Part shown: positions 34,539 through 51,854 of the stretch, piece by piece
How positions within the stretch are numbered: the stretch's first letter is position 1
Layout: every line of letters starts with the position of its first letter
Assembly: GCA_018656555.1 (NCBI GenBank)
Contig: JABHZQ010000007.1
Location: forward strand, 1-51,911
Source of the DNA: an archaeon
Lineage (GTDB): Archaea; Nanobdellota; Nanobdellia; SCGC-AAA011-G17; GW2011-AR17
Direction of reading: 5' to 3'
Length of the DNA stretch: 51,911 nucleotides
Translations under genes and position numbers: made by a program
The notes under the pieces: generated by a model
Seen by the model: the letters and a program-made list of their open reading frames with translations, nothing else
Told to the model about the DNA's origin: nothing
Database searches by the model: none

Positions 34539-36038
34539 ATGCTCGATACACGATCCATAAGACAACATTTCCCTTATTTGCAGGGAGATCTGGCCCTAAA
34601 TGTACAGAGAGAATTTCCAAGAGATAGAACTTTTTTGGATAACACTGCTTCTACACAATTACCTTTACCAGTTTTTGAAAGAATTGCTGAATCTCTTTTT
34701 GAGTATGCTAATATTCATCGAGGAGAGTATGATGCTTCACGAAGAACAACTGAAGATTTTGAAAGAGCCTATAATACTGCTGCTAATCTAGTTAATGCTG
34801 ATTCTTGGAGAGAGATTATGTTTGGTAGAAATGCTACTGAGATGGTTAATCTTATTATGAGAGGTATTGCTGAACAGATTAGAGATGGAGATAATATTGT
34901 TTCAACTCAACTAGAACATAATTCCAACTATGTACCTTGGTTTGGTTTACAACAGATGCTAAAGAAGAGAGGAATTAATATTGAAATTCGGTTGGCTGGT
35001 TTTGATAGAGAGACTGGAGAATTAGATCAAGGAGAACTTGAAAGTTTAATTGATGGTAAAACTAAATTAGTTAGTGTTACTGGTGCTTCTAATTTTTTAG
35101 GATATAAACCGAATGTACCAAGAATTGGCGAGGTTGCACATTCTTCTGGTTATGAACATACTGACGGTAGAAAAGGTTCTTACTTCTTGGTTGATGGTGC
35201 TCAATTAGTACCTGGAAGTCCAGTTGATGTTAAAAAAATGGGAGCTGACTTTTTAGCTTGGTCTTTCCATAAAATGAGTTTACCTTTAGGAGTTGGTGGG
35301 CTTTTTGCAAGAAAAGAAGTTATTGAAACTTTTGATCCATTCTTATATGGTGGAGATATGATTTATGATGTTCAAGAGGGAGCTGTTGAATATCAAGAGC
35401 TACCTTGGAAATTTACTGCTGGAACTCCCAATGTTATTGGAACTCTGGCTACTGGTTTTGGAACTAGTTTTTTGATGCACTTAGGTTTAGGAAACTTAGG
35501 ATCAGAAGAGGCTAGAGCTAAATTTATTGAAACACAAGCTTTTATGAATACTCCACGAGGAGATTTTGAGTTACCTTTTGCTGTATCAGAAAGAGATAGA
35601 GAGGTTTGGATTCCTTACTTGAGATCTAATCCTGGTAAAATGGCAATATTCAAAGATCCTGCACTGAGATTGGCAGAGACAAGAAGAATTATAGATGTTG
35701 CTATGGGCAATATCGAAACTCATGAACAAGAGTTAACTCAATCAATGATTGAGGCTTTGAGTGGAATTCCAAATGTTACTATTTATGGTCCTAAAGATGC
35801 AACAAAAAGAACAGGCTTGGTTGCATTTAATGTTAATGGTGTAGATCCACAAAATGTTGCCTTTGAATTAAACAGATTAGGTGTTGAATCAAGGAATGGT
35901 AATCACTGTGCATCTTTGGCTCATAATTATTTAGGAATTGAAGGAAGTGTTAGGTTTAGTTTCTATGTTTACAATGATCAATCAGATTTAGATAAAGCAG
36001 TTGATGCTGTTCGAGAAGTGGCTAGGAGGGTTGCATAA
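34539..36038 (+). CDS. SufS-type (group II) cysteine desulfurase with insertion
   Basis: About 499 residues from the ATG at 34,539 (MLDTRSIRQHFPYLQGD), with GGTGA just upstream; a GTG 9 bases earlier is less likely. PLP-dependent class V aminotransferase that takes sulfur from cysteine as an enzyme persulfide. Lys245 in AWSFHKMSLPLG binds PLP, preceded by VDGAQLVPGSPVDV. The catalytic Cys457 is in ESRNGNHCASLAHNYL, the group II form of 'R.G.HCA'. Compared with SufS (about 410 residues) there is an insertion of roughly 80 residues at about 310-390 (LGSEEARAKFIETQAFMNTPRG...). First gene of the operon; its stop overlaps the next start by one base. It probably supplies sulfur for the E1-like protein or Fe-S clusters for the radical SAM enzymes. 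Confidence 0.9.
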   Translation: MLDTRSIRQHFPYLQGDLALNVQREFPRDRTFLDNTASTQLPLPVFERIAESLFEYANIHRGEYDASRRTTEDFERAYNTAANLVNADSWREIMFGRNATEMVNLIMRGIAEQIRDGDNIVSTQLEHNSNYVPWFGLQQMLKKRGINIEIRLAGFDRETGELDQGELESLIDGKTKLVSVTGASNFLGYKPNVPRIGEVAHSSGYEHTDGRKGSYFLVDGAQLVPGSPVDVKKMGADFLAWSFHKMSLPLGVGGLFARKEVIETFDPFLYGGDMIYDVQEGAVEYQELPWKFTAGTPNVIGTLATGFGTSFLMHLGLGNLGSEEARAKFIETQAFMNTPRGDFELPFAVSERDREVWIPYLRSNPGKMAIFKDPALRLAETRRIIDVAMGNIETHEQELTQSMIEALSGIPNVTIYGPKDATKRTGLVAFNVNGVDPQNVAFELNRLGVESRNGNHCASLAHNYLGIEGSVRFSFYVYNDQSDLDKAVDAVREVARRVA

Positions 36039-37981
36039 TGGAACAATTACAAAGATTAATTCAAGAGAGTGGCTTAGAAGATCAAGCTGCATGTAAAGAT
36101 AATATTTTGATGTTAGGAAATTCACTTTTTGAAGCTTTTGGAATAAATGGTGGATTGGAAACAGATTATGAGAGAGGTTATGAAAAAGCAAGAGAATTTT
36201 TAGGAAGAGTTTGTGGTGTTTTTGATGATCCTACTCACTTAGTTAGAATAGCACCATTTGCTTATGCTTTCTTAGGAGAGGAGATGTTTAATAGAACTTT
36301 AGATGTTGTTTTACAAAAAGCAAGAGATAATCCTGATGACCGATCAATTTTAGATCAAGTTTTTAGTGGTGCTACTTTATTGAGACCTGAACTTAGAGCG
36401 GCCTTTTTATCTGATATTAGTGCAGCAGATGTTTTAGATGATGGACTTTTTGGTATTGATGATTATATTTCAGATGTTGATCCTAGTTTACAATTTGAAA
36501 GTGCAGATGCATTTCCAAGTCAGTTTACAACTGCTAATGTTAGGAAAGCTACTGAGTTACTTGGAAAATATTTACAGATGGGTGTTTTTCGTTCTGGAGT
36601 AGGTTTTACTGAGAATTTTGAAGCATTAAATCAAAGTATGGAAGGGTTTGGATATTTGATGGAAAGATCTACTGATGATTTAACTTTAATTGTTACAAGG
36701 GATCCTGTAAAGTTTATGTCTATGGGTTTAGGTAATGTTGCTTTTACAGATAGAATTACTGCGCGACCTCAAGGTGATGGTGATCAAAAAGATTTTAGAT
36801 ATCCTGGAACTGTTCTTGTTGATGATGATGTATCTTTACAAGAGGTTCAAAGATTCTATGCAGATGCTACAGTTGTCTATCTTAATAGAGATGTTCCTAC
36901 TGGATTTGAGCATTTAGTTGTTGGTGATGATGAAGATGTTATTGGAGCCCATTTAAGATTTATTTCAAAGAATCGGAAAGAAGGCTTGGTTCATCTTGGA
37001 GCTATGTTAGAGGCAGAAGTTAGAAATGCTGAAGATTTAGTTAGTAGAGGGAATGAATATTTCTTAGATGTAAGAAAAGGATTAGAAGATTTAGGAAGAA
37101 GAGATCTTATTGATAGAATGGTTGAAGCTGGAGGATATAGTGTTCCTCACAGAACTGATGCTAATTTAATGGTTTTAGTTTCTCCTAAAAGAAAAGATTT
37201 AGCAGATATATTTGAAGGAAGAGCTGGAGCGGATAAGAGAATGATGTTTTATAGAGAATTGCCTACTATTGAAGATACTGGAATGCCTTTTGTTTTTGTG
37301 ACAACTGAAGCAATACCTCAAAGTGAAATACTTGCAGCTTATCCTTCTGCAACTATCTTGTATGTTGCTGAGAATGATGCTAAGGAAAAAGCAATTTTAG
37401 CGGTTGATGAGAATGCTTTTGTTGTTAATGAAAAAACTGTTGCACCAAGAGGTAGGTTTAGAGGTACAGATAAAGGTAGAGTTGGAGATTGGGTTGTTAA
37501 TAGTTTCTTTGATAGAATTGCAAGAGCAAGAGGAGAAGGAATTACTAGTATGTATGATATTGCAAGAGGAATATCTGATGAAGTGAAAGATAGAAGAGAT
37601 AAAATAATGTTTGCAACCCATCTTAGAGGTTTTTATGATGAAGCAGCCCCTTATTATCGACTGCAGGAACAATTTGGACAGATGCCATTAGTTTTGCAAT
37701 TGACTGATGGTGTTCTTATGGAAAGTTGTCCAACTGGTGGATGTTTTAATTTAGATGCACCAGACACTGGAGGTTGTTGTGGTGGGGGAAATCTTCCAGG
37801 AGTATTGATTGATTTTGCAATTGCATATAGAAAACAAGTAGGTGAAGAGAGGTTTATGCGGGAATTAACTGCATATCATGATGGAGACGTAAGAGAACCG
37901 TGGTATTTTGATAGTACCCACTATCAAAGACACTTTAAAGGTTTGACAGAAACAGCAGATCAAGATGGAATGATCTTATAA
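36038..37981 (+). CDS. 647-residue protein with internal duplication and CPTGGC Cys-rich motif
   Basis: Not recognised. The N-terminal 210 residues are helical. Two similar segments follow, at about residues 214-310 (LTLIVTRDPVKFMSMG ... YADATVVYLNRD) and 376-475 (LMVLVSPKRKDLADIF ... YPSATILYVAEND). Each looks like a small alpha/beta domain ending in a 'DE-x-(V/F)' strand. Near the C-terminus Cys564 and Cys569 (SCPTGGCFN) and Cys580-Cys581 (TGGCCGGG) form a Gly/Cys-rich loop that could hold a metal, an Fe-S cluster or a persulfide. The same CPTG-x-C motif opens the JAMM protein two genes on. Position directly after the desulfurase suggests a sulfur acceptor or scaffold; this is inference. 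Confidence 0.75.
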   Translation: MEQLQRLIQESGLEDQAACKDNILMLGNSLFEAFGINGGLETDYERGYEKAREFLGRVCGVFDDPTHLVRIAPFAYAFLGEEMFNRTLDVVLQKARDNPDDRSILDQVFSGATLLRPELRAAFLSDISAADVLDDGLFGIDDYISDVDPSLQFESADAFPSQFTTANVRKATELLGKYLQMGVFRSGVGFTENFEALNQSMEGFGYLMERSTDDLTLIVTRDPVKFMSMGLGNVAFTDRITARPQGDGDQKDFRYPGTVLVDDDVSLQEVQRFYADATVVYLNRDVPTGFEHLVVGDDEDVIGAHLRFISKNRKEGLVHLGAMLEAEVRNAEDLVSRGNEYFLDVRKGLEDLGRRDLIDRMVEAGGYSVPHRTDANLMVLVSPKRKDLADIFEGRAGADKRMMFYRELPTIEDTGMPFVFVTTEAIPQSEILAAYPSATILYVAENDAKEKAILAVDENAFVVNEKTVAPRGRFRGTDKGRVGDWVVNSFFDRIARARGEGITSMYDIARGISDEVKDRRDKIMFATHLRGFYDEAAPYYRLQEQFGQMPLVLQLTDGVLMESCPTGGCFNLDAPDTGGCCGGGNLPGVLIDFAIAYRKQVGEERFMRELTAYHDGDVREPWYFDSTHYQRHFKGLTETADQDGMIL

Positions 37982-38002
37982 TAAAATTTGGAGGCAAATA
38001 AA

Positions 38003-38692
38003 ATGGCTACATTAGGAGCATGTGGGGATGAAAGACCTGAAGATAGAAAAGCAGAGCAAAAAAGAGCAAAAAAAGTACATAAATTCAACGAGATAGGAGA
38101 GATGCCAATTACAATGGTTGCTTATCCTGGATGTATTGAAGGAGATAGAGTTCCTGTTTCTGTTAAAGGTGATGATAGAGCAGTTTTACTTTTTGGTACA
38201 GCAGACATGATTGCAAGATATGTAATTGGAGAAGAAGTTGCATTACCAAAAAAAGGTAAGGGTATTAAATCTATTCCTAAAGCACTTAGGGGACAAACAT
38301 TCAAAAGAAATGTTACTAGAAGATATGAAGAACCAGTTGAAAGAATTGGAGATGAAATGCATGGAACTGGTGGAGTTGGAGAATTAGCTAAGAGACAAAA
38401 TAAAACCTATAAGGGATATACTCTAAAAGCTAATGGTGACAGTTTAACTGCTGACTCTATTGTGAATAGTTACTTCACAGAGATGGTCTTTGTTGAGGGC
38501 CCAGAAGGTAGACCAGTACCTAAATCTGTTGATGACCTTGTTGCTGAAGATGTAAAAATCCTTAGAAAAGATCAGGAAGTTCATGTTTTAGGTGGAGTTG
38601 AAATGGTTATAACTGCGATTCTTGTTTCAGGACAATATGAACCTGCAGCAAAAACCCCTGCATATGGAGATGACATTACATCAAGAATATGA
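38003..38692 (+). CDS. 229-residue protein, candidate ubiquitin-like modifier precursor
   Basis: Starts at the ATG at 38,003 (MATLGACGDERPEDRK) behind GGAGG at 37,990-37,994. After a charged N-terminal segment come two similar-sized beta-rich parts, residues about 33-110 (MPITMVAYPGCIEGDRVPVSVKG...) and 135-210 (TYKGYTLKANGDSL ... LRKDQEVHVLGGVEM). The second part ends in LRKDQEVHVLGG, Gly197-Gly198, followed by a 31-residue extension; another GTGG lies at residues 121-124. A ubiquitin-like precursor cut after Gly-Gly by the JAMM protease would look like this, but the beta-grasp fold is not proven from sequence. Its stop overlaps the E2-like start (ATGA). Confidence 0.75.
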   Translation: MATLGACGDERPEDRKAEQKRAKKVHKFNEIGEMPITMVAYPGCIEGDRVPVSVKGDDRAVLLFGTADMIARYVIGEEVALPKKGKGIKSIPKALRGQTFKRNVTRRYEEPVERIGDEMHGTGGVGELAKRQNKTYKGYTLKANGDSLTADSIVNSYFTEMVFVEGPEGRPVPKSVDDLVAEDVKILRKDQEVHVLGGVEMVITAILVSGQYEPAAKTPAYGDDITSRI

Positions 38693-40137
38693 GTCTAGAA
38701 ACAACATTTTTAGATAGGATTGCTGAGAGGCAATCCTCTTTTGTATTATTTAAAGGTCAGGCTTATGCTATTACTGAAGATCCAATTAATGGAAATTTCT
38801 TGGATATTATGGGAAGCAGAATGGCTTTAGTTCCTTCTATGCCTTTTAGAGATTTTGAAAGGTTAGATGAACAACTTTATGGGGCTGATGTTGAAAACTA
38901 TTGTGCTAGATATGTTCGTGAAAAAATTGATAGTGAATTAAGAGCTGAAGATGAAGTAAGAAGAGAAACTTCTCGAATTAATACTTTAAAATATTTAATG
39001 GATAGATTATTACCTCATTTAGTTGCAAAAAAATATAGTTCTGATGAAATACTGTTACATGAGGTTCTTGGAACTGAAGTGGATAAAGGTCCTGTGGATC
39101 TAGCACGAGATGAAATAAGAGAAAAACTAAATCATGATTTTGGTGTTGAGGATATTGAAGTTGATGAAGATCCTGCTGAGAGAATGAGAGCTAATGTTTT
39201 GGCGAGAGAGAAAGGAGAGTTAGATAGAGCACCTTTAATGGGTGAAGCTGGAGAGTATGATTCTGTTTTACAGGCTGTTATAGGTAATCAACCAATTTAT
39301 GTTATGGATGGTAGATTGTATGCTCTTGAATCTCCGGGTGATATTGAAAGAGGAAAATTTACATTTGTTATGGGTGGTAGAGCTTATACTCCTTCAGAGA
39401 CAAGACTTCCAAGTTTAAGGGAAGTATCTCAAGAAATTTTGGAAAGGAGAAAAATGGTTTGGAGAATTGCTGCTCTTGAAAGGAGTCAAGATACTTTTGC
39501 AGGTATAAGAGATCAGATTCATACTGCAGAAGTTACTGAAAGACAGATGCATGAGTTGGCTAAGTTAGAAGAATTTGATTTAGGGAGTTGTGGTTTTGTT
39601 TTGAAAGATGGTTCTTATTATGTTTATTCAAGAGTTCCTAAGTTTGCAACACAAGATGGAAGAGATAAGGATGTTTTTTGGCCTTATGATGCAACAAGAG
39701 TTGCAATTAAGATTGGGTGGAGTGGGGGCCAAGCTCATAGTAGTGGTGATGGAGTTGTTATTGAGAAGAGAGAGTTTCATCCTTGTTTAAGAAATAGATC
39801 TAGTGGAGGGTGGAAAGGAATTTGTAACTTAACTCGGGGAGCGAGTGATTATGGAAAAACTCCTGCAGAGATGGTTAGAAAACTTTCTGATGCTGTTACT
39901 GTTATTACTGAACCTTTGTCAGAAATAAGTTTGAAAAGGCATGGGAGTCCAGGTAGTTATTCTTATTTTGGGGATAGTGTTGAGTCTATTTTAGGACAGG
40001 GTTCTCTAACAAGAGAAGAAGCTGAAGAACAAGGTTATGGTATTGTTGAAGTTATTGCAAAAACTTTGGAGTTAGAAGATTTACCAGAAATTGAAGAAGT
40101 GGAAGATGAGGGAGAGGATGGAAAAGTAGAGGAGTAA
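38689..40137 (+). CDS. E2 (ubiquitin-conjugating)-like protein
   Basis: 482 residues. Residues about 300-420 carry an E2-type pattern: LKDGSYYVYSRVPKF, DVFWPYDATRVAIKI (compare 'YPF.PP.V.F.T'), then FHPCLRNRSSGGWKGICNL with His364-Pro365 and the candidate catalytic Cys379 in GIC, as in the E2 signature 'HPN...G.IC', and a following helix (TPAEMVRKLSDAVTVITEP). The N-terminal 300 residues contain an internal duplication: FVLFKGQAYAITED...MALVPSMP (residues 18-65) and IYVMDGRLYALESP...AYTPSETRLPS (198-260). The C-terminus is acidic. The neighbouring E1-like and JAMM genes strongly support a conjugation role. The family assignment is from pattern, so it is probable but unproven. Confidence 0.78.
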   Translation: MSLETTFLDRIAERQSSFVLFKGQAYAITEDPINGNFLDIMGSRMALVPSMPFRDFERLDEQLYGADVENYCARYVREKIDSELRAEDEVRRETSRINTLKYLMDRLLPHLVAKKYSSDEILLHEVLGTEVDKGPVDLARDEIREKLNHDFGVEDIEVDEDPAERMRANVLAREKGELDRAPLMGEAGEYDSVLQAVIGNQPIYVMDGRLYALESPGDIERGKFTFVMGGRAYTPSETRLPSLREVSQEILERRKMVWRIAALERSQDTFAGIRDQIHTAEVTERQMHELAKLEEFDLGSCGFVLKDGSYYVYSRVPKFATQDGRDKDVFWPYDATRVAIKIGWSGGQAHSSGDGVVIEKREFHPCLRNRSSGGWKGICNLTRGASDYGKTPAEMVRKLSDAVTVITEPLSEISLKRHGSPGSYSYFGDSVESILGQGSLTREEAEEQGYGIVEVIAKTLELEDLPEIEEVEDEGEDGKVEE

Positions 40138-40141
40138 AAAA

Positions 40142-41923
40142 ATGGTTAAGAAGAAGAAGAAAAAGCAAGTAGATGATGAATGTCCTACTGGAGTATGTGG
40201 TTTAAATGGTGTACATAATGGTGGGTATGATGATGATGGTGATTTTGGTGATGAATTATTAGATATGGTTATGGGTGATGATGAGCCTAAAGTAGAAAAA
40301 GTTCCTGCTTTAGTTGATTTACTTCCTGCACAATTAGTAATTGAGGATAGGGCTTTACAGTTAGGTTATATGATTGGTCCTTTGACTCAACAGCATTATA
40401 AAAAAGCTTTAGAGGTTGGTGGATTTCTTATTGTTGATAGAGATGCTCCTGCCCATTATTTAGATTTTGCTATTCCTCATGGTTTACCTGTTACTTCAGG
40501 AACTGTTGTTATGGCTGATCATTATGATAATGTTGCTGTCGAGAATCGAGCTAATAATCAAAGAAATGGCACTCATCTAAAAATTGGTGCTATGTTTCAT
40601 ATTCATCCAAGTAAGGGAAATCAAGGTTTGTACCATAGTGGACAAGATGATGCTGCAAGTTTACAGTTACTTGGACGAATGGCAAAAACTACAAGAGTGG
40701 TTCATGAAGCTAAATTTCCTTTGTTTGAAGAGGCAATGAGAACAGAGTATGGTGAGGGCGAGTATGTTTTAAGAGGAGATGCTTTGAGTGATGCTATTCA
40801 GAGATTTGTTTATCCTGATGAACAAATGTTTAAAGAAGTTCTAAGAAGTTTTGGAATTAGAGTTCCAAGAGAGCTTAATAGAGATAAATTTTTAGGAAGA
40901 TTATTAGATACAATTGGAAAGGATACTCTTGAACCTAGAAAGGTGAATTATGCTGTTAGTTTTGTTTTTAATAATGGTGGAAAAGGACCTTATGTAAAAA
41001 TGACTGCTGAAGAGCGGTTTGCTATTTCAGGTAAGAAGAATGTTACTACTATTGATAATAGAAGTGGATTAAGTATAGTTAAATCTAATGTTGGAGTAAA
41101 TTTACCAACAGAGGAAGAAGTTTTGGCTCTTATTGCTGAGAGAGTTGTCTATAATCCTCCTAAGCCCCCTGCTAAAAAAGTTATTGGTGCAGGAGGAAGT
41201 CAAGGGGGATGGCAAAGTTGGGGTAGACAAGGTGTTGCTGGTGCTATTGGTCAATGGTTAGATGGTACAGGACAGGCTGGTGGTGCAATTCCTCTATCAG
41301 GAAGTAGTACTTATTATACTAGACCTGTAAGAAAAACTGTTGCTGAAAGAATTGCAAGTTTGGATGCATTGGTTCAAGCACAAGAACCAGATGATCAATC
41401 AGATGTATATGCAGAACTTATGGGTGAAGAGGTAGAACCTGTAAGAGCTAAACCAAAAGCTAAATCTAATCTTGATGTTATGGACAAAAGTGAAGAAGCA
41501 ACTTACACCAATGTGGAGATTATTGATCTTTTTGTTTTAAAGTTAGGAGCTTACATTACTGAAGCTAGACATAGTTGGGCAACTTATTCAACTTACCTTT
41601 ATGAATTGTTTGATGAGGGAATTGGAACCTATACAAAAAAAGATGGTTATGTGGGATTAAAAGATAGTGTTATGGAATTGGGTGAATTGGTTCAAGATAA
41701 TCCACAAATTGTTGAAAGACATACTCTGAGACCCTATAAATTTGGGCATGCAGGTGAAAATTTGATTAAAGAATATATGGCAGAGCGAGATGAGAGGACA
41801 GTTGACTTTATGTTATCTTTTGGTTTAGCTGCTGGATTCCCTGAAATGGATGCTGCTCTTGAAAGTTATGTGCAAGATGTGTTAGATTATGATCAAGAAG
41901 AAGCACCCGAAGGAGTAGAATGA
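40142..41923 (+). CDS. JAMM/JAB-domain metalloprotease
   Basis: 593 residues. The zinc peptidase motif is complete: Glu91 (LEVGGFLIV), His153 and His155 (MFHIHPS), Ser166 and Asp169 (HSGQDDAAS), the E...HxHP...SxxD signature of Rpn11- and Mov34-type deubiquitinases, with a slightly long loop between HxHP and S. The N-terminus is lysine-rich followed by ECPTGVCGLNG (Cys14, Cys19), echoing CPTGGC in the 647-residue protein. A Gly/Ser-rich linker (residues 340-400) leads to a helical C-terminal domain. Expected to mature a ubiquitin-like precursor or remove it from targets. Stop overlaps the E1-like start (ATGA). Confidence 0.88.
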   Translation: MVKKKKKKQVDDECPTGVCGLNGVHNGGYDDDGDFGDELLDMVMGDDEPKVEKVPALVDLLPAQLVIEDRALQLGYMIGPLTQQHYKKALEVGGFLIVDRDAPAHYLDFAIPHGLPVTSGTVVMADHYDNVAVENRANNQRNGTHLKIGAMFHIHPSKGNQGLYHSGQDDAASLQLLGRMAKTTRVVHEAKFPLFEEAMRTEYGEGEYVLRGDALSDAIQRFVYPDEQMFKEVLRSFGIRVPRELNRDKFLGRLLDTIGKDTLEPRKVNYAVSFVFNNGGKGPYVKMTAEERFAISGKKNVTTIDNRSGLSIVKSNVGVNLPTEEEVLALIAERVVYNPPKPPAKKVIGAGGSQGGWQSWGRQGVAGAIGQWLDGTGQAGGAIPLSGSSTYYTRPVRKTVAERIASLDALVQAQEPDDQSDVYAELMGEEVEPVRAKPKAKSNLDVMDKSEEATYTNVEIIDLFVLKLGAYITEARHSWATYSTYLYELFDEGIGTYTKKDGYVGLKDSVMELGELVQDNPQIVERHTLRPYKFGHAGENLIKEYMAERDERTVDFMLSFGLAAGFPEMDAALESYVQDVLDYDQEEAPEGVE

Positions 41924-43377
41924 CAAAAGAAGTACAAACTGGAATGATTGAAGAAGATCGATATAGAAGGCAGAAACTTATTTGGGGAGATGAAGGACAA
42001 GCAAAACTTGATAATGCAAAAGTTGCTGTTATTGGTCTTGGTCCTCAAGGAATTTATAGTGCCTTGTGTATGGCTGCTTTAGGTATTGGTAATATTGTTC
42101 TAGTTGATGGTAATAATAGTGATGTTGGAGAGATGTTCCTAGATATGGATGTTCCCCAAGGTGCAAGAGGAGATGTTTATCCTGAATTGTTAAGAAGAAT
42201 AAACGCTCAAATTGGTATTCAAGGTTATGCTACTAACTTAGAAAGTTCTATTGATCAATTAGCATTAAGTGGTGCGAATGTTATTGTTGATGCTACTAAT
42301 AACCAGAGATCTAAAAGATTAGCTCTTGCTTTTGGAAGAGAGAAAGATATTCCTGTGTTGAGTACTTCTTCAAGATGGGGTTATACTAAACTTATGTTGG
42401 GAAGTGAGGGAAAGGAGCCTGAAATGTTAATGCCAATGTTTGAAGGACATGAACAAGATCCATTAATGGCTTTGGTAATGGCTGGAATTGTAACTGAGAA
42501 AGTTAAGAAGTTAGCATTTGGAAGTTTGGATGAGGTTATTAGAGATCCAATTAGGTATAGACTTGGTGGGAAGAGGTTTGGATTTCCAGATGTAGATGAA
42601 GAGATACCTTTACCAAATTATGATTTGTATAGAGCATTGAATATTTTATTTTTAGGAGAGGGTGCATTAGGAAATTGGGCTACAATTGCAATGTCCCATT
42701 TAAGACCTGGAAGAGTTGATAAGGTCGACTATGATATCTTTGAATCACATAATATTAATAGACAGGTTTTGGCTTATGATGGAATTGATGCAGAAAAAGC
42801 TGCACACCTTGCTGAAAAATTAAGAAGGATGACAAAAGGTGCTACAGAGAGTGAAGGTTTTAATGTAAAGATTCTACCTGGTTTTTCTCTTGAAAGAGAG
42901 TATGATTATGTTTTTGATCTTGTTGATAATTTTTATACTAGGGCTGTGAATAGTGCTTTTGCTGTGAATAATCATATTCCTCTTGTTAGTGCTGGAGCAG
43001 GAGCACACGGTGGAAGATGGGATGTTCATGTTGAAGGAGAAACTCAATGTATGGGTTGTATGTTTGATATTTATGAAAGAGGAAGAGAGGAAGAGATTAT
43101 TAGAAGAGTTAGTTGTGCTGCTAATCCAAATCCTGCTGTTGTTATGAGTAATGCTATTGCTGGTGTTGCTGCTGTTTTAGAATTATTTAGTTTAGTGGAA
43201 CCTGAAAAATATGGTGGAGCATTTAATGGGGAGCAAACTTATAGGGCTGTGGGTAAGGTTAGGTTAGGTACTTCTCCTTCTAGAGGAGCTTGTGATTGTT
43301 ATTCTAATGAAGCTCCAAGTTTAGAGATTAGTGAGGCAGAGGTTGCAGCTTATACAGAGGCAGGAGGGGAGAAGTAA
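41920..43377 (+). CDS. Two-domain E1/ThiF-like activating enzyme
   Basis: 485 residues with two Rossmann domains of the ThiF/E1 family. Domain 1: YRRQKLIWGDEGQAKLDNAKVAVIGLGPQG, nucleotide loop at residues 39-44. Domain 2: LFLGEGALGNW, loop at 246-251, then VDYDIFESHNINRQVL with Asp270/Asp272 and Asn280-Arg281, the adenylation residues. CxxC (Cys377, Cys380) and CDC (Cys458, Cys460) are likely zinc ligands; Cys399 in VSCAANPNPAV is the best candidate for a thioester cysteine. The order of a first, less canonical domain and a second, complete domain resembles the inactive and active adenylation halves of eukaryotic E1. No ubiquitin-fold domain is seen. Activates the C-terminus of a ubiquitin-like protein with ATP. 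Confidence 0.88.
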   Translation: MTKEVQTGMIEEDRYRRQKLIWGDEGQAKLDNAKVAVIGLGPQGIYSALCMAALGIGNIVLVDGNNSDVGEMFLDMDVPQGARGDVYPELLRRINAQIGIQGYATNLESSIDQLALSGANVIVDATNNQRSKRLALAFGREKDIPVLSTSSRWGYTKLMLGSEGKEPEMLMPMFEGHEQDPLMALVMAGIVTEKVKKLAFGSLDEVIRDPIRYRLGGKRFGFPDVDEEIPLPNYDLYRALNILFLGEGALGNWATIAMSHLRPGRVDKVDYDIFESHNINRQVLAYDGIDAEKAAHLAEKLRRMTKGATESEGFNVKILPGFSLEREYDYVFDLVDNFYTRAVNSAFAVNNHIPLVSAGAGAHGGRWDVHVEGETQCMGCMFDIYERGREEEIIRRVSCAANPNPAVVMSNAIAGVAAVLELFSLVEPEKYGGAFNGEQTYRAVGKVRLGTSPSRGACDCYSNEAPSLEISEAEVAAYTEAGGEK

Positions 43378-45845
43378 TGGAGGAAGAAGAAGATTTTATT
43401 CTGGATCTATTTGAAGAGTCTCTAGATGCTGGGAAAAAAGAGGAAGTAATTGCTTGGGAAGCTCCTGCAGTTAATAGAGTTGCTAGGGTGTTGGAAGAGG
43501 GTAGGAGAGATGTTACTAATTATGATCCTTTTACAAATATTTTAGTGGGTTATTTAGTTAGAGAGGGGAGGAAAGGTTTGGTTGGAGAGTTGAATGGAGT
43601 TAGTCAAGAAGATAGAGTTAAAATATTATTAGCTGCTGAAGCTTTGGCTCCACATAGAGTTAATCCAAAAGTTAGCGATGTTGAATCTTTTGAAGATTAT
43701 ATGGGTGCAGTTGGTGTTGCATTTGGTGAAAGATTAGGAAGAATGTTGAGGTTGGATATGGAATTTAAGGGTGTTGAAGAAGCTAAAGCAGAAGGAGTTG
43801 AATTTGTTGATGAAATTGATCCTTTGTTTAGTGGTTTTAGAGCTGAAACTTTAATTGCTGCTAATGTTGTTTCTAATTTAGTTGGTGAGGTTGAGGTTGG
43901 AAGTTATGATGAATTAGCTAGAGCTGCTTTCTTAAATTTTAATGGTAGTGAAGGAAATGGAGTTTTAGATGTTACAAAAGTTCTTGTTGAAAAAAGTTTG
44001 GGTGCAGCAGATGTTGATTTAGATGTTGATACTGCTGTTGCAAGATATCAAGAGATTTTAGTTTCAAGATTTGGTTTTACTCAAGATTTGATTACTCAGT
44101 TAGAAAGGTTTCAAGGAATGACTTTTGATTTTAATGGAATGTCTAGAATGATTAGAACAGAATTTGAAGAGAGAACTGGTTATGTTCCTAATATTGGAAC
44201 TCATTATGATAGAAGAGCATATGAAAGATTGAAAGGAGAACTTCTTGAATTAGATGTAAAATTGTTTAAACCTCTTCCTACTGAACCGACTCAACATTTT
44301 AATAGTAGAGATTGGGCAAGACCACATCAGGCTATGGGTGAAGGTGGTAAACGTTATCATAGAAGAAGAAGTGAAACTATTGAAAAGCTTCCTCTTGGAA
44401 CTGTGGGTCATCTTGATGGTGATCATGATTTTGTGCCGACCAATAAAGGAGGATACTTTCATTTAAGATATAGAGAGTTGCAAAAGTTAGAAGAGGTTAT
44501 TCTTGAGGTTGCTGGGGCGGGTGGAGATTTTAGAAGAGGAGATAGAGTTAAACTTGTTAATAATTTAGGACCTCAATCACATTATGATACTGATGAATAC
44601 TATTATGGTGGAACTATAAGGGAAATGAAGCTAGGAATTGAAGGAGAGGTTATAACTGGAGATGATAGAATGGTTAGAATAGAGTTTCCGAGAAGAGCAT
44701 GGAATTGTCATCCAGATGAATTGAAAAACTTAACAAGAACTCCAGAAAAAATAGAAGATGAAAAAGATGAAAGAGAAGAATTGAAAGTTGTTATGGCTGA
44801 AGTTGTTAGTGGGGCTGAAGCTGATTTTGAGAGAGCAAAAGAGAATAAGGAAAGGTTGGTTAGAGATGGTGTTGATACTTTTAGAGCAATGGGTGTTGAT
44901 GATGGAGTTATAAGGTATTTCTTTGATCAATATTTAGATGATGTTGCTGAGTTTGGAGATTTTATGCCAGAGGGAACTATCTTTAATGAAATTATGGAAA
45001 TACAAGAGAGTATGAATTATGGTGGGCTAAGAGATAAAGTTGTTGCATTGGTTAAAGATAGGATGGATGTTTTAGTTAAAGTTGATGATGTAAGAGATGC
45101 TGGAGAGTATGGTAAGTTTAAGGAAGATCTTGTTGATAGAGTTTTACATGGATTTAAGGATAAAAAAGGTAAGAAAACTGAAGGGTTTGAAAGAGGAGAA
45201 CCAGTTATGTTGGATGAAGCTCATGGAAAATATCCAAAGGGAACTATTGCAATTTATCATGCTGATTGTGGGGATGATCATCATGTTGATTTTGATGATG
45301 GGGCTACTGATGTCCATATAGATGAAAGAGTGATAGGTGTTGCTGCTGCTTATGCTTTACCTAAGATTCCTACTGCATATGAGGGGATGAAAAAAGGAGT
45401 AAGGGTTAAGATTAGAAAAGATAGTGAGTATGCTCATCAAAATGATGGAGAAGGAGTAATGGTTAATAATTTTGGGGATGAAGAAGGAGGAAGAGAGCTG
45501 TGGGCCAAGGTTAAATTTGATAAGGGTAGAGGTAATAATTATAGGGAAAAAGATTTAGAACCGGTTGATCCTGCTAAATTAACAGGAAGGAAATTAAAAA
45601 AATATAACAAAGCTGTTGCTGCAATGGAAGAGTTGAAAGTTGGGATTGAAGAACAGTTAGGTCCTATAATTGCAGAGGCTGAGAGAGATCATGCTGATGT
45701 TAATAGAAGATTAGATGATCTTACTATGAAAACTATTGATACTTTTAGAAGTATGGGATTTGAGGATGAGGCTATTGGAACTATGTTTAGAGAAAACATG
45801 GGAGATACTTCTTATTTGAGAGAGAGGGAATTGTTAGACTATTAG
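43377..45845 (+). CDS. 822-residue protein with SH3-like (MIB/HERC2-like) barrels and MGF repeats
   Basis: Not recognised as a whole. Residues 1-375 are helical, with a FGFTQDLITQLERFQGMTFDF stretch that aligns with segments of the two following radical SAM proteins. Residues 388-454 are a barrel (GDRVKLVNN...EYYYGG...GIEGEVI...WNCHPDELKN) also present in those proteins. Two more barrels follow, at 604-652 and 670-730; the last (GVRVKIRKDSEYAHQNDGEGVMV...KVKFDKGRGNNYREKDLEPV) resembles the MIB/HERC2 domain of ubiquitin ligases. Two repeats DTFRAMGVDDGVI and DTFRSMGFEDEAI look like the MGF loop of UBA domains. A recognition or ligase-like adaptor is possible. Starts one base inside the E1-like stop. 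Confidence 0.75.
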   Translation: MEEEEDFILDLFEESLDAGKKEEVIAWEAPAVNRVARVLEEGRRDVTNYDPFTNILVGYLVREGRKGLVGELNGVSQEDRVKILLAAEALAPHRVNPKVSDVESFEDYMGAVGVAFGERLGRMLRLDMEFKGVEEAKAEGVEFVDEIDPLFSGFRAETLIAANVVSNLVGEVEVGSYDELARAAFLNFNGSEGNGVLDVTKVLVEKSLGAADVDLDVDTAVARYQEILVSRFGFTQDLITQLERFQGMTFDFNGMSRMIRTEFEERTGYVPNIGTHYDRRAYERLKGELLELDVKLFKPLPTEPTQHFNSRDWARPHQAMGEGGKRYHRRRSETIEKLPLGTVGHLDGDHDFVPTNKGGYFHLRYRELQKLEEVILEVAGAGGDFRRGDRVKLVNNLGPQSHYDTDEYYYGGTIREMKLGIEGEVITGDDRMVRIEFPRRAWNCHPDELKNLTRTPEKIEDEKDEREELKVVMAEVVSGAEADFERAKENKERLVRDGVDTFRAMGVDDGVIRYFFDQYLDDVAEFGDFMPEGTIFNEIMEIQESMNYGGLRDKVVALVKDRMDVLVKVDDVRDAGEYGKFKEDLVDRVLHGFKDKKGKKTEGFERGEPVMLDEAHGKYPKGTIAIYHADCGDDHHVDFDDGATDVHIDERVIGVAAAYALPKIPTAYEGMKKGVRVKIRKDSEYAHQNDGEGVMVNNFGDEEGGRELWAKVKFDKGRGNNYREKDLEPVDPAKLTGRKLKKYNKAVAAMEELKVGIEEQLGPIIAEAERDHADVNRRLDDLTMKTIDTFRSMGFEDEAIGTMFRENMGDTSYLRERELLDY
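44538..44740 (+). repeat. Shared SH3-like module, copy 1 (in the 822-residue protein)
   Basis: Codes for EYYYGG, then LGIEGEVI, then WNCHPDEL. The same spacing of Y-x-YGG, LG-x-x-GE and W-x-x-HPDE recurs in the two downstream radical SAM proteins. Confidence 0.75.
44871..44940 (+). repeat. Internal helical repeat with MG(V/F) motif, copy 1
   Basis: Encodes DTFRAMGVDDGVIRYFFDQYLDD. It matches a second copy at 45,735-45,800 (DTFRSMGFEDEAIGTMF) and is preceded in both by a charged helix. Confidence 0.65.
45384..45567 (+). other. MIB/HERC2-like domain within the 822-residue protein
   Basis: A GxRV start, a 'DGEG' turn, a (W/V)-K-F-D-x-G strand and NNYREKDLEPV end follow the order of MIB/HERC2 domains ('G..V.RG.D....DG..G.V...W.NG..N.YR...DL'). 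Found by eye, so a profile search is needed. Confidence 0.5.
45735..45800 (+). repeat. Internal helical repeat with MGF motif, copy 2
   Basis: Encodes DTFRSMGFEDEAIGTMFREN near the C-terminus. MGF between two short helices is the classical UBA loop. Confidence 0.6.
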
Positions 45846-45854
45846 GAGAAAAAA

Positions 45855-47254
45855 ATGAAAAATAGAACACTAACCTTGGTAAATGTTGTTAATGATGGCG
45901 ATTGTATAGAGCAACAAGAATGCCTGCACTATCTCTGGCGTATTTAGCTGCTCATACACCTGAAAATTGGGATGTAAAAATAGTTGATGAAACTGTTGAA
46001 CCCTTTGATGCATGGAAACATGTTGAAGGTTCAGATATTGTTGGATTCAGTGGTGGAAATGTATGTAATATTCATAGACTTACTGATCATATTTCTAGAG
46101 TTACAGAATATGATCAAGTTATGGGAGAAGAAACTCCAATTATTTTAGGTGGATATGTTGGCGGATTAAATATTGAAGGATTACCTAATAGAGTGGATGC
46201 TAGAGTTATTGGTCCTGGTGAATTAGCTTTACAAGAATTACTAGCTGATTTTGAAAATGGTGGAATGAAAAGAGAGTATGTTGGTCAAAGAGTTCCGATG
46301 AATGAATTAAGGACTCCTGATTTCTCTGGATTTAATGTTGCTGCTTATGGTAAAAATGTTAATTGGCCTGTAATGACTTCTGTAAGTTGTGGAAATACTT
46401 GTGGATTCTGTAGTGCAAGAGTTGTTTATGGTGATGGTTATGCAAGTAGATCTCCTGAAAAAGTTCTAGCAGATATGGCACAATTTGATCCTGATACTAG
46501 ACTTTATTTTGTAGACCCTAATGTTTTGCAACTTTCAAGAAATGGTAAAAGAAGAGCTAGAAAATTGTTTAAAGGCATGGCTAAACAAAATCATCCTTGG
46601 TTTGGATCTGCAACTTTTAGAGTTTCTGAAGATGAAAGAATGTTAGAAGCAATGGCAGAAAGTGGATGTAAGGGTTTGTTAATTGGATTTGATTCTGCTC
46701 TACCTGAAAGTTTACAGACTGTATCTGCTCCAAAATATAGAGTAAGAGAGGATCAAACTTTAATTGAATATTATGTTGAAGGTGTAAAAAGAATACAAGA
46801 AAAGTTTGGTATTGATGTTTTGGGAACTTTTGTTATTGGTTTTGATACTGATGATGAAAGAACTATTGCAAATACAATTAGGGTTGTTCAAGATTCTGGA
46901 ATGAAAGATGCACAGTATTTACCATTTACCCCTCTTCCAGGTACACCATCTTATAATGAAATGGAAGCAGCAGGTAGAATCATAGATCATAATCTTAATC
47001 GTTATGATTTTACTGATGTTGTTTTTAGACCACAAAATTTCTCTGGTGCAGAATTAAGAGATTCATTAGTAAAGATGTATGATGAAACCTTCCCCAGAAT
47101 GTTGGCAATCTATAGAAGATTTGGTTTGGTTAGAGATAGACCTGAATTGATTAAAGTTGAATCAATGAAGTTAAGAGCTGAAAGAGAAGAAAGAGCAGCA
47201 AGGGAAAGAGAAAGGAGAGGGAGAAGAAGGGGTGGAGGCGGAGGACATCATTAA
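45855..47254 (+). CDS. B12-binding radical SAM protein with apparent frameshift
   Basis: The radical SAM part is intact: CxxxCxxC in SVSCGNTCGFCSARVVYG, then GSATFRVSEDERML, GFDSALPES and GTFVIGFDTDDERT, with an N-terminal cobalamin-type domain (LYRATRMPALSLAYLAAHTPENWDVKIVDETVEP, GFSGGNV, IILGGYVGGL). The long frame opens only at a TTG (45,902) in mid-domain. The missing first strand, MKNRTLTLVNVVNDGD, is encoded in another frame from the ATG at 45,855 behind AGGAG. The frame changes by -1 near 45,897-45,902, so one base seems to be missing or the ribosome shifts. The tail is RRGRRRGGGGGHH, a basic, Gly- and His-rich end. No slippery heptamer is seen. Substrate unknown. Confidence 0.82.
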
Positions 47255-49524
47255 TGGAAGCTGCTTTACAACAACCTTCAACAGGAGATGCAATTGATAG
47301 TTTACTTAGGAAGACCTATCAATTAGTTGCACAAGATAGGATGCATCAGATTGCTGAAATAACTGGTAATCAAGGTTTAGTTCAAGAGTATGGTTCTGGT
47401 GTGAATAGTATCATAGATTTAGAATCACTTTTTGCATTTGCAGGAGAGTTACCTTCACAAGAAGTGCTAGCTCGTATGGTTAAAGCAAAAATTGTTAGTA
47501 AATATGGAGAGGGTGTTGGGGAAGAGGTTATAAGAGTTGAAGAGAGGAGAGAAAGCGAACTTGCAGATCCTCCTGTTGATTATGGTATGTTTGTTGGTGA
47601 GATTAGAGAGGGAATAAATGATAGATTTAGAATTAGTGTTCCTGAAGTAACTGTTCCAGGAAGAGAGGGTTATGGAAAACATAAAACTGAACTAGAAAGA
47701 ACTGTAGCAACAGAAATAGAAAGAAGATTAGATGGGAATTATGGAGAAATTATAGAAGTTACTGAGCTGGCTGGTTTTGATATGGATACTTTAGATCCTG
47801 AATATCATTATGGTGGAAATGAAGATGATCTTGCATTAGGAAGTAGAGGAGAAATTATTGAGGTTGGAGCGGATAGGTATTCTGTTATGGTTGATAGTGT
47901 TGAATGGCAATTACATCCTGATGAAGTTACTCTTACTGGTGAGAACAAATATGCTGGAGTGGATGTTGTTAAGGTTGTTAGAGATATAATTCAAACTGTT
48001 GAAGATAATAAAATGGAAGCTCATATTGCAGGGCAGATAGCAGCTATTAATCAAAATAGAGATAGAGATTTAGATATACGAACTCGTATTTTTAGAGAGG
48101 AATATGGATTAAGTATTGATCAAATATTGGCCATGCATAGAGAAGAAGATTTTGAATATGAAGTTCCAGGTCTACCTAAAGTTGGACCGGGTCTTGTCCC
48201 ATTTAGTGATTTGTATAAATTATTAGCAAAAGCTATTAGTCAAAGAACAGGAAAGGAAATATTGGGTGGGGCTGATGAAATCACTACTAGTGGTGAATTT
48301 AGAATTAATGTTACTGAAGCTGCTGATCATCTTGGTGTTGATAATGATTTGGTTTTAAGAGTTAGTAGTGAAGTTGCAGATATCTTAGATAAACAACACT
48401 ACCTAAAAGGTAGAGAATATGCTGCTAGAAATGGTGCTAAAGATGTTACAAGAGCTATGATTGAAGAAATGTTAGGTAGAGATGGTCTGCCTTGGACTAG
48501 AAGACTTGTGCTATATGCTAACAAAGATGTATATGAAGGAGGAGATCCTTTTGCACCTCCCTCTGAAGAACTATTCAGAGTTATAAAACTTGAAGTTGGT
48601 GGAGGTTGTGCTTATGGAAAATGTACCTTTTGTATGGAATATGCTGGTGCACCTTTCTTTGTTCATAAACAGGCTAAGTTTGAAGCCCATGCAAGAGAAG
48701 TTAAGAGATTGTTGGGAAGTGATAGTGAATATATTAGGAGAGTCTTTCTTTCAGGAGGAGATACTTTTGCTCTTCCAACAAAAAGATTGAAAGGTTATCT
48801 AAGCACTGTTAATGAACTTTTTAATGATGGTTATGAGAGAAATATTAGAAGAGTTGAAGCTTTTTCAAGAACAGAAGGAATTACAAGAAAGAGTGTTGGT
48901 GAAATTAAAGATTTAGTTGATCATAATCTTAGACTTCTTTATTGGGGAGCTGAAACTGGATCTGATGAACTTTTGGCTTATGTAAATAAGGGTATTACAA
49001 GAGCTAAAATGGATAAAGCTATTGCTAAATTAACAAGCACTTCGATGATGGTTTCTATTATGATTATGCCAGGGTTGGGTGGAATGAGATTTTATGATCA
49101 ACATGTAAGAGAGACAGTAGCTCTTGTTAATGCTTTGAAACCAAGATGGACAACTTTCCATACAATAACTCCAAAACCAGGAGCAAGATATGGTAAGATA
49201 ATGGCTGAAGAGATGGCTGCAGGAACTAATAGACCTCTAACTGAGGAAGAGGTTGTTGAACAGATGCATGATATTGTTGCAGGTATGCGTACAGGTTATA
49301 GAAATTTGGTTGCAACTTATTATCCACCCTCTGCAAAGATTGCAATTAATCCAGTTACATTTAGAGGTTATATGCATAGGGGAAATGGTCAATTTGGAAT
49401 TTTGACTGAATTGAAAGAGTGGTTTAGCCTAGGGGAGAGAGTACCAAGTCAAGATTTAGTTGATACTGATTTTAATAAAGGGAGTGGAATAAGAGCTTTG
49501 GCTAGAGGTGGAGAAGCATGGTAG
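47254..49524 (+). CDS. Radical SAM protein with N-terminal accessory modules (paralog 1)
   Basis: 756 residues. Residues 1-430 are accessory: a helical start (DSLLRKTYQLVAQDRMHQI), the shared barrel at 174-231 (EYHYGGNEDDLALGSRGEIIEV...WQLHPDEVTL), and REEYGLSIDQILAMHREEDFEYEV. The radical SAM core begins at FRVIKLEVGGGCAYGKCTFC with Cys452, Cys457 and Cys460, a CX4CX2C spacing seen in some COG1032-type proteins in place of CX3CX2C. FLSGGDTFALP, WGAETGSDELLAYVNKG and MIMPGLGGMRFYDQH follow. Paralog of the next gene, which it overlaps by 7 bases. Likely acts on a protein or peptide delivered by the accessory part; that is inference. Confidence 0.85.
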   Translation: MEAALQQPSTGDAIDSLLRKTYQLVAQDRMHQIAEITGNQGLVQEYGSGVNSIIDLESLFAFAGELPSQEVLARMVKAKIVSKYGEGVGEEVIRVEERRESELADPPVDYGMFVGEIREGINDRFRISVPEVTVPGREGYGKHKTELERTVATEIERRLDGNYGEIIEVTELAGFDMDTLDPEYHYGGNEDDLALGSRGEIIEVGADRYSVMVDSVEWQLHPDEVTLTGENKYAGVDVVKVVRDIIQTVEDNKMEAHIAGQIAAINQNRDRDLDIRTRIFREEYGLSIDQILAMHREEDFEYEVPGLPKVGPGLVPFSDLYKLLAKAISQRTGKEILGGADEITTSGEFRINVTEAADHLGVDNDLVLRVSSEVADILDKQHYLKGREYAARNGAKDVTRAMIEEMLGRDGLPWTRRLVLYANKDVYEGGDPFAPPSEELFRVIKLEVGGGCAYGKCTFCMEYAGAPFFVHKQAKFEAHAREVKRLLGSDSEYIRRVFLSGGDTFALPTKRLKGYLSTVNELFNDGYERNIRRVEAFSRTEGITRKSVGEIKDLVDHNLRLLYWGAETGSDELLAYVNKGITRAKMDKAIAKLTSTSMMVSIMIMPGLGGMRFYDQHVRETVALVNALKPRWTTFHTITPKPGARYGKIMAEEMAAGTNRPLTEEEVVEQMHDIVAGMRTGYRNLVATYYPPSAKIAINPVTFRGYMHRGNGQFGILTELKEWFSLGERVPSQDLVDTDFNKGSGIRALARGGEAW
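47773..47946 (+). repeat. Shared SH3-like module, copy 2 (radical SAM paralog 1)
   Basis: Encodes EYHYGGNEDDLALGSRGE followed by W-x-x-HPDE and TGEN. Near-identical to copy 3 in its first half, and related to copy 1. Confidence 0.85.
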
Positions 49525-51854
49525 CACAATTAGATCCAGGAATAAGTATAGGAACAACAACAAAAGTTGATACTACTTTTGATGATTTGTTTAGTACATT
49601 CTATAGACTTGCTGCTCAAGATAGTTTGATAAGAGCTATGGGTCCATTAAGAGAGACTGATGCTTTTGGTGAATATCAAGCACGAGTGTCTGATGTTCAA
49701 GACAGAGATAGTTATGATTCTTTTATGGGTTCTTTACCAAGTAATGCAGATATTAGAGCTGTTGTTAAGGCTGAAATTGTTGAAGCTTATGGAAGTTTTG
49801 ATGGACAGATAGGTGAGATTGAACAACAAAGAACTGCTGCATTAGAAAATCCAGAAGTTTATTATCCTGAATTTACTTCAGCTGTTATAGAAAGAGTTAA
49901 TGAAAGACTTGGTACTGATCTTGAAAGAGTTCCAGCTTCTAAAGATGACTATCCAACTTTTATAGGACTTTTGGAAGATGGTGTTAATCTATCTCTTGAA
50001 GAAAAACTAACTCCAGTAAATGGAGTAAGATATGCTGATGTTGTTGAAGTTACTAATATGAATGGATTTGATACATCTAATTTGGAGGATGAATATCATT
50101 ATGGTGGAAATGAAGATGATCTAGCATTAGGAAGTAGAGGAGAAGTCATTAATATTGTCTCTGGAGTTAGATATACAATTGTAGTTGATGGAAAAGAATG
50201 GCAAATTCATCCTGATGAGATTCAAGTTACTGGCGAGAATAGATTAGTTGCTTTGGTTGGTGAGGGAGATTATGGGGCAGCAGTAACTGCTTTTGTTGAT
50301 GGAATTGTAGAAGAGTTAACTCCTGAATTTATTGAAAGAGCTCGGGCTAAAATAGGGCAAGGTTTTGATGCTAAGGTTGTAGCAGTTACAAAAGAATTAA
50401 AAATAAAATATGGGTTGGTTGCTGAACAAGTAAGAGCCATTCATGCTGGAGAAGATTTTGTTTATGAGGTTGAAGGTGGAAGAGATGAAGGACTAACTTT
50501 ACCTTTTCAAAGATTAGCAAGTTTAGCTCTTAAGGCTTTAGGTTATAAAGTTGATAAACCTACAGTTACTATTCAAATTGGTTCTATTAAAAATGAAGAA
50601 GGATTTATAGATTTTGTATTAAATTCTGCTAAAGAGTTAAGAAATAAAGATTATGCTGGACTTGCAGGAGAACAGATGGATGTTTTATCACTTTTATTGA
50701 ATAATGAGTATGATGCAGTTAGTAGAAGATCTTTGCAAACTGGAGGAGAAAGACAGGGTCATATTTTAGAGGATACAATTGATGCTTGGATAAAGACAAG
50801 AACAACTGGTGGACAACTAGGAACTGCTTTTTCTTTAAATAGAGCTTTACTATATCATGATCAAGATATTTTTAGTTCAGTACCTTTTTCACCACCGTCT
50901 GAAGAATTACATAGAGTTATAAAATTAGAAGTTGGAAGTGGTTGTAGTTATGGTGCTTGTACTTATTGTACTGAATATGGTAGAGTGGATTTTACAATTA
51001 GAAAACTAGATGATTTTAGAGCACATGTTGCTGCAGTAAGGAAAAAAATGGGCAGAGATGTTTATAATATAGAAAGACTCTTTTTAGCTGGGGGAAATAT
51101 TTTTGCAATGCCTACTAAAAAAGTTCTTCAGTATAATGATATTGCAAGAAATGCTTTTAGAGGAGATACAGATATTAGAAGAATTTCTGCTTTTACAAGA
51201 ACAGAAGGTTTAGCTAAGAAAAGTGTTGGAGAAATTAATGACATTGTGGGGCATGGTTTGAATATGGTTTTCTGGGGTGTTGAAACTGGTGCAAATTCTG
51301 TTTTGGATTATGTAAATAAAGGAACAACTCATGAAAAAATGATGGAAGCTGCTTCAAAAATACCTAATAGTAATATGCAAGTTTCTGTTATGATCATGAC
51401 TGGTTTAGGTGGATTAAGACATTATGAAGATCATGTTGTTGAGACTACAAGATTATTGAATGCTATGCAACCTAGATTTGTTACTTTCATGACTGTTAAT
51501 CCAAAGCCTTGGTCTGTTTATGCAAAAAGAATGGCTGAAGAGATGGAAAGAGGAGAGAATATGCCACTTACTGATGAGATGGTTGTTGAACAGATGTATG
51601 ATATTGTTAGAGGATTAGATAGCAGGGCTTGGAGAGGACATAGATGTCTTGTTGGTGCTTATCGATTGCCTACTGAGAAAGTTGCAAATAATCCTGTTGA
51701 ATTTAGAGGAAGATTAGAAAATCATGGTGGTAAGGGACAAATATTAACTGGTTTACAAAATTTATTTAGAGGAGATTTTCAACCAAGTCCTTTGATTCCT
51801 GCTGGTGAGTTTAATAGAACCGGGAGTAGAATAAGAGCTATGCTCGAGGTTTAA
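49518..51854 (+). CDS. Radical SAM protein with N-terminal accessory modules (paralog 2)
   Basis: 778 residues with the same layout as the preceding gene: helical start (FDDLFSTFYRLAAQDSLIRAM), barrel at 183-241 (EYHYGGNEDDLALGSRGEVINI...WQIHPDEIQV), KIKYGLVAEQVRAIHAGEDFVYEV, then the radical SAM core with Cys476, Cys481 and Cys484 in GSGCSYGACTYC, FLAGGNIFAMP, WGVETGANSVLDYVNKG and MIMTGLGGLRHYEDH. The two proteins differ most in the 240-430 region, so they may act on related but different sites or form a heterodimer. The ATG at 49,518 lies inside the previous gene's last codons. Confidence 0.85.
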   Translation: MVAQLDPGISIGTTTKVDTTFDDLFSTFYRLAAQDSLIRAMGPLRETDAFGEYQARVSDVQDRDSYDSFMGSLPSNADIRAVVKAEIVEAYGSFDGQIGEIEQQRTAALENPEVYYPEFTSAVIERVNERLGTDLERVPASKDDYPTFIGLLEDGVNLSLEEKLTPVNGVRYADVVEVTNMNGFDTSNLEDEYHYGGNEDDLALGSRGEVINIVSGVRYTIVVDGKEWQIHPDEIQVTGENRLVALVGEGDYGAAVTAFVDGIVEELTPEFIERARAKIGQGFDAKVVAVTKELKIKYGLVAEQVRAIHAGEDFVYEVEGGRDEGLTLPFQRLASLALKALGYKVDKPTVTIQIGSIKNEEGFIDFVLNSAKELRNKDYAGLAGEQMDVLSLLLNNEYDAVSRRSLQTGGERQGHILEDTIDAWIKTRTTGGQLGTAFSLNRALLYHDQDIFSSVPFSPPSEELHRVIKLEVGSGCSYGACTYCTEYGRVDFTIRKLDDFRAHVAAVRKKMGRDVYNIERLFLAGGNIFAMPTKKVLQYNDIARNAFRGDTDIRRISAFTRTEGLAKKSVGEINDIVGHGLNMVFWGVETGANSVLDYVNKGTTHEKMMEAASKIPNSNMQVSVMIMTGLGGLRHYEDHVVETTRLLNAMQPRFVTFMTVNPKPWSVYAKRMAEEMERGENMPLTDEMVVEQMYDIVRGLDSRAWRGHRCLVGAYRLPTEKVANNPVEFRGRLENHGGKGQILTGLQNLFRGDFQPSPLIPAGEFNRTGSRIRAMLEV
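50064..50240 (+). repeat. Shared SH3-like module, copy 3 (radical SAM paralog 2)
   Basis: Encodes EYHYGGNEDDLALGSRGE, then W-Q-I-HPDE and TGEN. Confidence 0.85.

Follow-up and report, generated by a model that had tools for sequence, protein, structure and literature searches.

The closest described system is BilABCD, a bacterial ISG15-like antiphage conjugation operon with the gene order Ubl-E2-JAMM-E1, an E1 composed of an inactive and an active half, and a modifier precursor trimmed by the JAMM protease (PMC11354881). Its modifier, BilA, has two Ubl domains, and its E2, BilB, carries a CEHH motif (PMC11354881). Among archaea, Caldiarchaeum subterraneum has a system of ubiquitin, E1, E2, the srfp E3 and Rpn11; there, a JAMM enzyme trims a nine-residue tail from the ubiquitin precursor, cutting precisely behind GG (PMC5654768, PMC6043591). 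The Gly78Ala variant of this ubiquitin is still processed, while bulky residues at the same position block cleavage (PMC6043591). Iyer et al. (2006) defined operon types 6a-6e, which combine a prokaryotic Ubl, an E1, an E2-like protein and a JAB protein and are patchily distributed; bacterial lineages are listed there for types 6a and 6c-6e, and type 6d E2s are described as lacking the classical His (PMC1779556).

The window analysed here is a stretch of 51,911 nucleotides (contig positions 1-51911) from an archaeal genome of 1.08 Mb. It carries an operon at 34542-51854, in which genes for a SufS-type desulfurase, P0002, P0001, an E2-like protein, a JAMM protease, an E1, P6 and three radical SAM proteins overlap or nearly touch, all on the forward strand. 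We consider it likely that P0001 is the modifier of a dedicated conjugation system with trimming by JAMM, activation by E1 and transfer by the E2-like protein. We regard the system as a variant of the prokaryotic Ubl conjugation systems, nearest to BilABCD, with which it shares the gene order Ubl-E2-JAMM-E1, the two-half E1 and a precursor that JAMM is predicted to trim. However, the models of P0001 and of a compact homologue show one Ubl domain instead of two, and the candidate catalytic cysteine of the E2-like protein is followed by NLTRGASDYGK instead of CEHH, with a canonical-looking HPx...IC kept. Since these two Bil-defining features are missing, the system should not be classed as Bil; it is, moreover, archaeal and comes with accessory genes for a desulfurase, a CPTGGC protein and radical SAM enzymes. 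With the Caldiarchaeum system it shares the archaeal host and a short tail that JAMM would remove, but the operon has no recognised RING-type gene, the Ubl has an extra helix and insertions, and there is no detectable sequence similarity between the two modifiers.

The P0001 gene (38003..38692) encodes a precursor of 229 residues, and its stop codon overlaps the ATG of the E2-like gene at 38689; it is, as the initial annotation stated, the smallest protein of the operon and lies directly before the E2-like gene. The AF2 model of P0001, built with eight sequences in the alignment, has a mean pLDDT of 72.9 and contains strands at 36-42, 50-54, 134-143, 146-148, 159-163 and 193-209 with helices interspersed, while residues 212-229 are disordered (pLDDT below 50). 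Ubiquitin, ISG15, SUMO and Caldiarchaeum ubiquitin dominate the Foldseek list for this model, yet with E above 0.5. Better support for the fold comes from a compact homologue of 113 residues, which is modelled with a pLDDT of 89.3 and has the strand and helix order of ubiquitin: nearly all of its top 50 matches in the PDB are ubiquitin-like folds, the best being ISG15 (E 8e-4), with Caldiarchaeum ubiquitin among the nearest (TM 0.63). The clade of the window and the compact clade are homologous in a profile-profile comparison by hhalign (95.5%, E 1.4e-8). The structure prediction proposed with the initial annotation supports a beta-grasp, more firmly for the compact homologue than for P0001 itself, but both the P0001 model and the compact homologues show a single domain with insertions rather than the two domains suggested at about 33-115 and 135-198.

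The Ubl and the E2-like protein have no family match in Pfam, NCBIfam or PADLOC, and PDB searches with their profiles gave no useful match. Direct comparison of the Ubl profile with ubiquitin by hhalign covers 18 columns and is not significant, though the LSDY region is in register. A DUF3326 match on P0001 (E 0.016) was below the cut-off and was set aside. Considering the fold of the compact homologue, the hhalign homology, the C-terminal GG of the family (see below) and the cassette context, which together bear out the original idea of a ubiquitin-like modifier, we believe that P0001 is very probably such a modifier, from a family to which standard databases are blind. The motif CGxxRPxDRK occurs at the Ubl N-terminus in four of the five members of the window's clade.

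The initial annotation placed the cleavage site at Gly197-Gly198 (38591..38596), followed by 31 residues, and pointed out a GTGG at residues 121-124; the length and the GTGG are both correct. The GG dipeptides of P0001 are at residues 123-124 and 197-198; given 24 Gly in 229 residues, 2.4 such pairs are expected against the 2 present, so the dipeptide by itself is no better than chance. The family is more informative: GG lies within the last 25 residues in 27 of 40 small genes beside E2 or E1 genes, compared with a mean of 4.9 and a maximum of 11 over 2000 shuffling trials, and in just 2 of 42 E2 ORFs of the same loci. It mostly precedes a short variable tail of 1-13 further residues. In the hhalign alignment, QTGG|LEKCL of the compact clade falls opposite LVSGQ|YEPAAK of the window, so that the leading glycine of the family's GG lies at Gly210 (38630..38632), while Gly197-Gly198 is matched with YQG, where the last strand begins. 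Among 21 members, Gly occupies position 210 in 19, position 211 in 13, position 198 in 13 and position 197 in 5; Gly198 is a common residue opening the last strand, and Gly197 is mostly clade-specific.

Conservation within the clade agrees with this alignment. Identity is 0.15 over residues 164-195, 0.75 over 196-198, 0.46 over 199-210 (the twelve residues VEMVITAILVSG) and 0.14 over 211-229; as it falls from 0.46 to 0.14, the conserved part ends at Gly210, and the tail begins at 211. The equivalent of Gly210 is kept in all five clade members. This glycine stands right after the last strand and before a variable, disordered stretch, the 19-residue predicted propeptide QYEPAAKTPAYGDDITSRI (38633..38689). 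We infer that the processing glycine is Gly210, twelve residues beyond the site first proposed, and that JAMM would cut there (VSG|QYEP). The idea of a cleavable C-terminal tail encoded beside a JAMM protease gene is thereby upheld, with removal predicted for 211-229; as for the expectation that homologues would keep Gly197-Gly198 invariant and vary in the tail, the pair is not invariant, and the tail does vary, but only from residue 211. That JAMM cuts after Gly198, leaving residues 199-229 as the propeptide, now appears highly improbable, although GG197-198 is kept in four of the five clade members: the site is within the predicted strand 193-209, the loss of 199-210 would strip most of this last strand, the next twelve residues are conserved while the following nineteen are not, and the terminal GG of the family aligns at Gly210.

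The di-glycine terminus found in most of the wider family is absent from the window copy, which reads SGQ at this point, and this counts against conjugation. Most members of the clade have no second Gly (SG|Q, PG|G/D/S/H), so the mature modifier may finish with one Gly. As the residue after the first Gly varies (Q, G, D, S or H), and by analogy with Caldiarchaeum, the simplest reading for this clade would be that the cut falls behind the first Gly, which then forms the C-terminus by itself. One can also suppose that the modifier is not processed at all and that SGQ is the sign of a Ubl subunit that is degenerate or acts non-covalently, since the window copy has lost the second Gly, this position varies within the clade, and bulky residues there stop cleavage in Caldiarchaeum (PMC6043591). 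We find this quite doubtful, however, considering that the first Gly is kept in five of five members, that all the enzymes are intact and that the tail varies as a propeptide would.

The E2-like protein (38689..40137; 482 residues) contains HPCLRN...GIC with the candidate catalytic Cys379. In 26 homologues, selected for an alignable motif region, the HPx...IC motif never varies in its His, Pro or Cys, and the invariant HP distinguishes this family from the type 6d E2s described by Iyer et al. (PMC1779556). Some members read HPFVYDNGSIC, compared with HPNINSNGSIC in a canonical E2. An hhalign comparison with canonical E2s, represented by four human sequences, aligns the HPx...IC stretch over 14 columns, with E 0.014 for one comparison; a single E2-like sequence against the E2 profile was not significant, and searches of Pfam, NCBIfam and PDB profiles gave no match. 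There is good evidence for a putative E2-like active site in this 482-residue protein and weaker evidence for a UBC fold, the assignment coming from motif and position. That the E2 call comes from motif and position, with no PDB match and 14 hhalign columns, is to be held against the conjugation reading, as is the absence of a database family match for both the Ubl and the E2-like protein.

The other two enzymes are recognised more readily. The JAMM/JAB protease (40142..41923; 593 residues) has its metal-site residues E91, H153, H155, S166 and D169 all invariant in the family alignment, and its family profile matches BRCC36, CSN5 and Rpn11 in the PDB profile search; PADLOC gave no match for it, as for the Ubl and the E2-like protein. 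The E1 (41920..43377; 485 residues) consists of an N-terminal inactive-type ThiF half and a C-terminal active half, the latter recognised by Pfam (E 1.6e-36), and carries the candidate catalytic Cys399. The E1 family profile matches UBA6, Uba1, the SUMO E1, MoeB, ThiF, Cap2 and BubCD in the PDB, and eight members share, without exception, the arginines and glutamine of RYxRQ, GxGA, the residues of DxD...NxNRQ and Cys399. A gene for an E3 was not identified, which is a further point against conjugation.

On present evidence the system would work like the Bil and Caldiarchaeum pathways. The JAMM protease would cut off the 19-residue tail of P0001 after Gly210; the two-half E1 would adenylate this glycine and load P0001 onto one of its own cysteines, of which Cys399 is the probable one; P0001 would then move to Cys379 of the E2-like protein, which would hand it over to a target amine; and the JAMM protein may also detach P0001 from its targets. 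The homology, the family fold, the gene order, the active-site residues and the conserved boundary between glycine and tail are supported directly. We infer the chemical steps, the exact bond that is cut and the targets.

The distribution of the system is patchy. In single-sequence searches, 2 of 103 genomes of the order (that of the window included) contained relatives of P0001, and 9 of 378 genomes of the class contained relatives of the E2, while the profile search found E2-like relatives in 35 of 371 sampled genomes of the phylum (about 9%) and 32 of 378 of the class, several of them with multiple copies. In 40 loci with 45 E2 copies, a small ORF lies immediately upstream in 34 cases, the commonest order being E2-JAMM-E1; the order Ubl-E2-JAMM-E1 was found in most complete loci. 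When 84,980 species genomes were scanned, a further relative turned up in Asgard archaea; an Asgard contig (L025, 7288-11368) has Ubl-E2-JAMM-E1 in the same order and a GGG tail (MGGGAVENFFMKI). Searches of viral contigs yielded nothing beyond weak E1 matches, the majority of them partial. The window forms a clade with G002, G383, G472 and G367 in the E1 tree (support 100/100), and the clade covers four different families of the class. Other E2-like copies in G367 (L156, 352-1998; L159, 2780-6325) open with a region of the KVGSKVTIKKNLGP type that looks like a portion of P6, and tandem E2 genes occur in L159 and L155.

In the clade of the window, the cassette has further neighbours: the desulfurase and P0002 lie upstream in four of five members, and a P6-like gene lies downstream in all five. 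The desulfurase (34542..36038) matches Pfam with E 2.6e-90 and conserves the Lys of SFHK and the Cys of RNGNHCAS; its NCBIfam sufS match reaches 7.3e-100, yet is below the cut-off of that model. P0002 (36038..37981) is uncharacterised and has no Pfam match, but its conserved C-terminal region LTDGVLMESCPTGGCF...GGCCGGGN is kept in G002, G383 and G472, with the CPTGGCF...GGCC part invariant in clade homologues. In G002 (L005, 83-3567) two ORFs take the place of one for the P0002 homologue, and SufS is split as well, perhaps by sequencing errors or because the genes are broken. Motifs of the CPxGxC type are found in P0002 (CPTGGC...GGCC) and at the JAMM N-terminus (40142-40230; CPTGVC), in the latter case in the window and in G002; these motifs and the CGxxRPxDRK of the Ubl were noted in L149, L152 and L004 besides the window. 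P6 (43377..45845; 822 residues) is uncharacterised, although the homologue encoded in L149 matches SH3_15 (Mind bomb repeat) weakly. Pfam identifies RS1 (45902..47254) as a B12-binding/radical SAM protein with CxxxCxxC, and RS2 (47254..49524) and RS3 (49518..51854) as radical SAM proteins; RS3 is conserved in the G002 operon. RS2 and RS3 are mutually related and have the cluster motif C-x4-C-x2-C instead of C-x3-C-x2-C, and their YHYGGNEDD region resembles YYYGGTIRE of P6.

Given the desulfurase, the system may serve sulfur transfer, conjugation or both; as a neighbour the desulfurase fits sulfur transfer equally well, and this too weighs against the conjugation reading. The sulfur-carrier systems SAMP, Urm1, ThiS and MoaD share with the window a Ubl and an E1, in some cases a JAMM protein, and a nearby desulfurase. 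They have a single-half E1, often with a rhodanese domain, and are not known to have an E2. By analogy with ThiS, MoaD and QbsE, SufS and E1 could make a C-terminal Gly thiocarboxylate on P0001 that feeds radical-SAM chemistry. The desulfurase with intact Lys and Cys in the operon of four of five clade members and the radical SAM genes that come after are in favour of such a carrier; the genome has another cysteine-desulfurase-like gene elsewhere (as well as proteasome genes), so the operon copy looks dedicated. We nevertheless regard a carrier role as unlikely: the adjoining E2-like protein has a conserved Cys, the E1 is built of two adenylation halves and gives no match to rhodanese in Pfam or NCBIfam, and the majority of family loci consist of the Ubl-E2-JAMM-E1 core without a desulfurase.

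Under the conjugation reading, which we prefer, it is plausible that the desulfurase, the CPTGGC/GGCC protein and the radical SAM enzymes are substrates or partners of the modifier. It is tempting to propose that a DPANN Ubl pathway has merged with sulfur and radical-SAM chemistry, the single-Gly modifier tagging, or bringing sulfur to, the radical-SAM and CPTGGC proteins; we consider this a possibility, though a rather improbable one. If true, a single protein would serve a dedicated biosynthetic operon as its tag and as its donor of sulfur. In any case, the desulfurase-bearing clade bears on the relation of sulfur carriers to protein modifiers.

Among archaea with small genomes, complete E1-E2-Ubl-JAMM cassettes seem to be both common and diverse, with a Ubl and an E2 that escape Pfam, NCBIfam and PADLOC; we found no earlier description of them in the literature searched, the coverage of which is incomplete. 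The natural terminus variants GG, GA, PG and SG occur with matching enzymes, which makes terminus recognition by E1 and JAMM directly testable.

Lysine depletion was considered as a self-protection signal. Across the family, lysine content is 7.7% against 8.4% (37 of 48 loci, p 0.002); the effect is small and other window genes have a similar composition, so no such signal is claimed. The operon proteins (34542-51854) contain little lysine and much arginine (K 3-9%, R 5-9%), as do those of 1170-2174, 16226-16894 and 25194-26306, while most other long genes of the window have K 10-15% and R 2-4% with similar AT-rich codon usage. The 222-residue protein encoded at 16226-16894 has a Pfam Sigma-70 region 2 match above the cut-off (E 2.6e-6); bacterial sigma factors are not expected in archaeal genomes.
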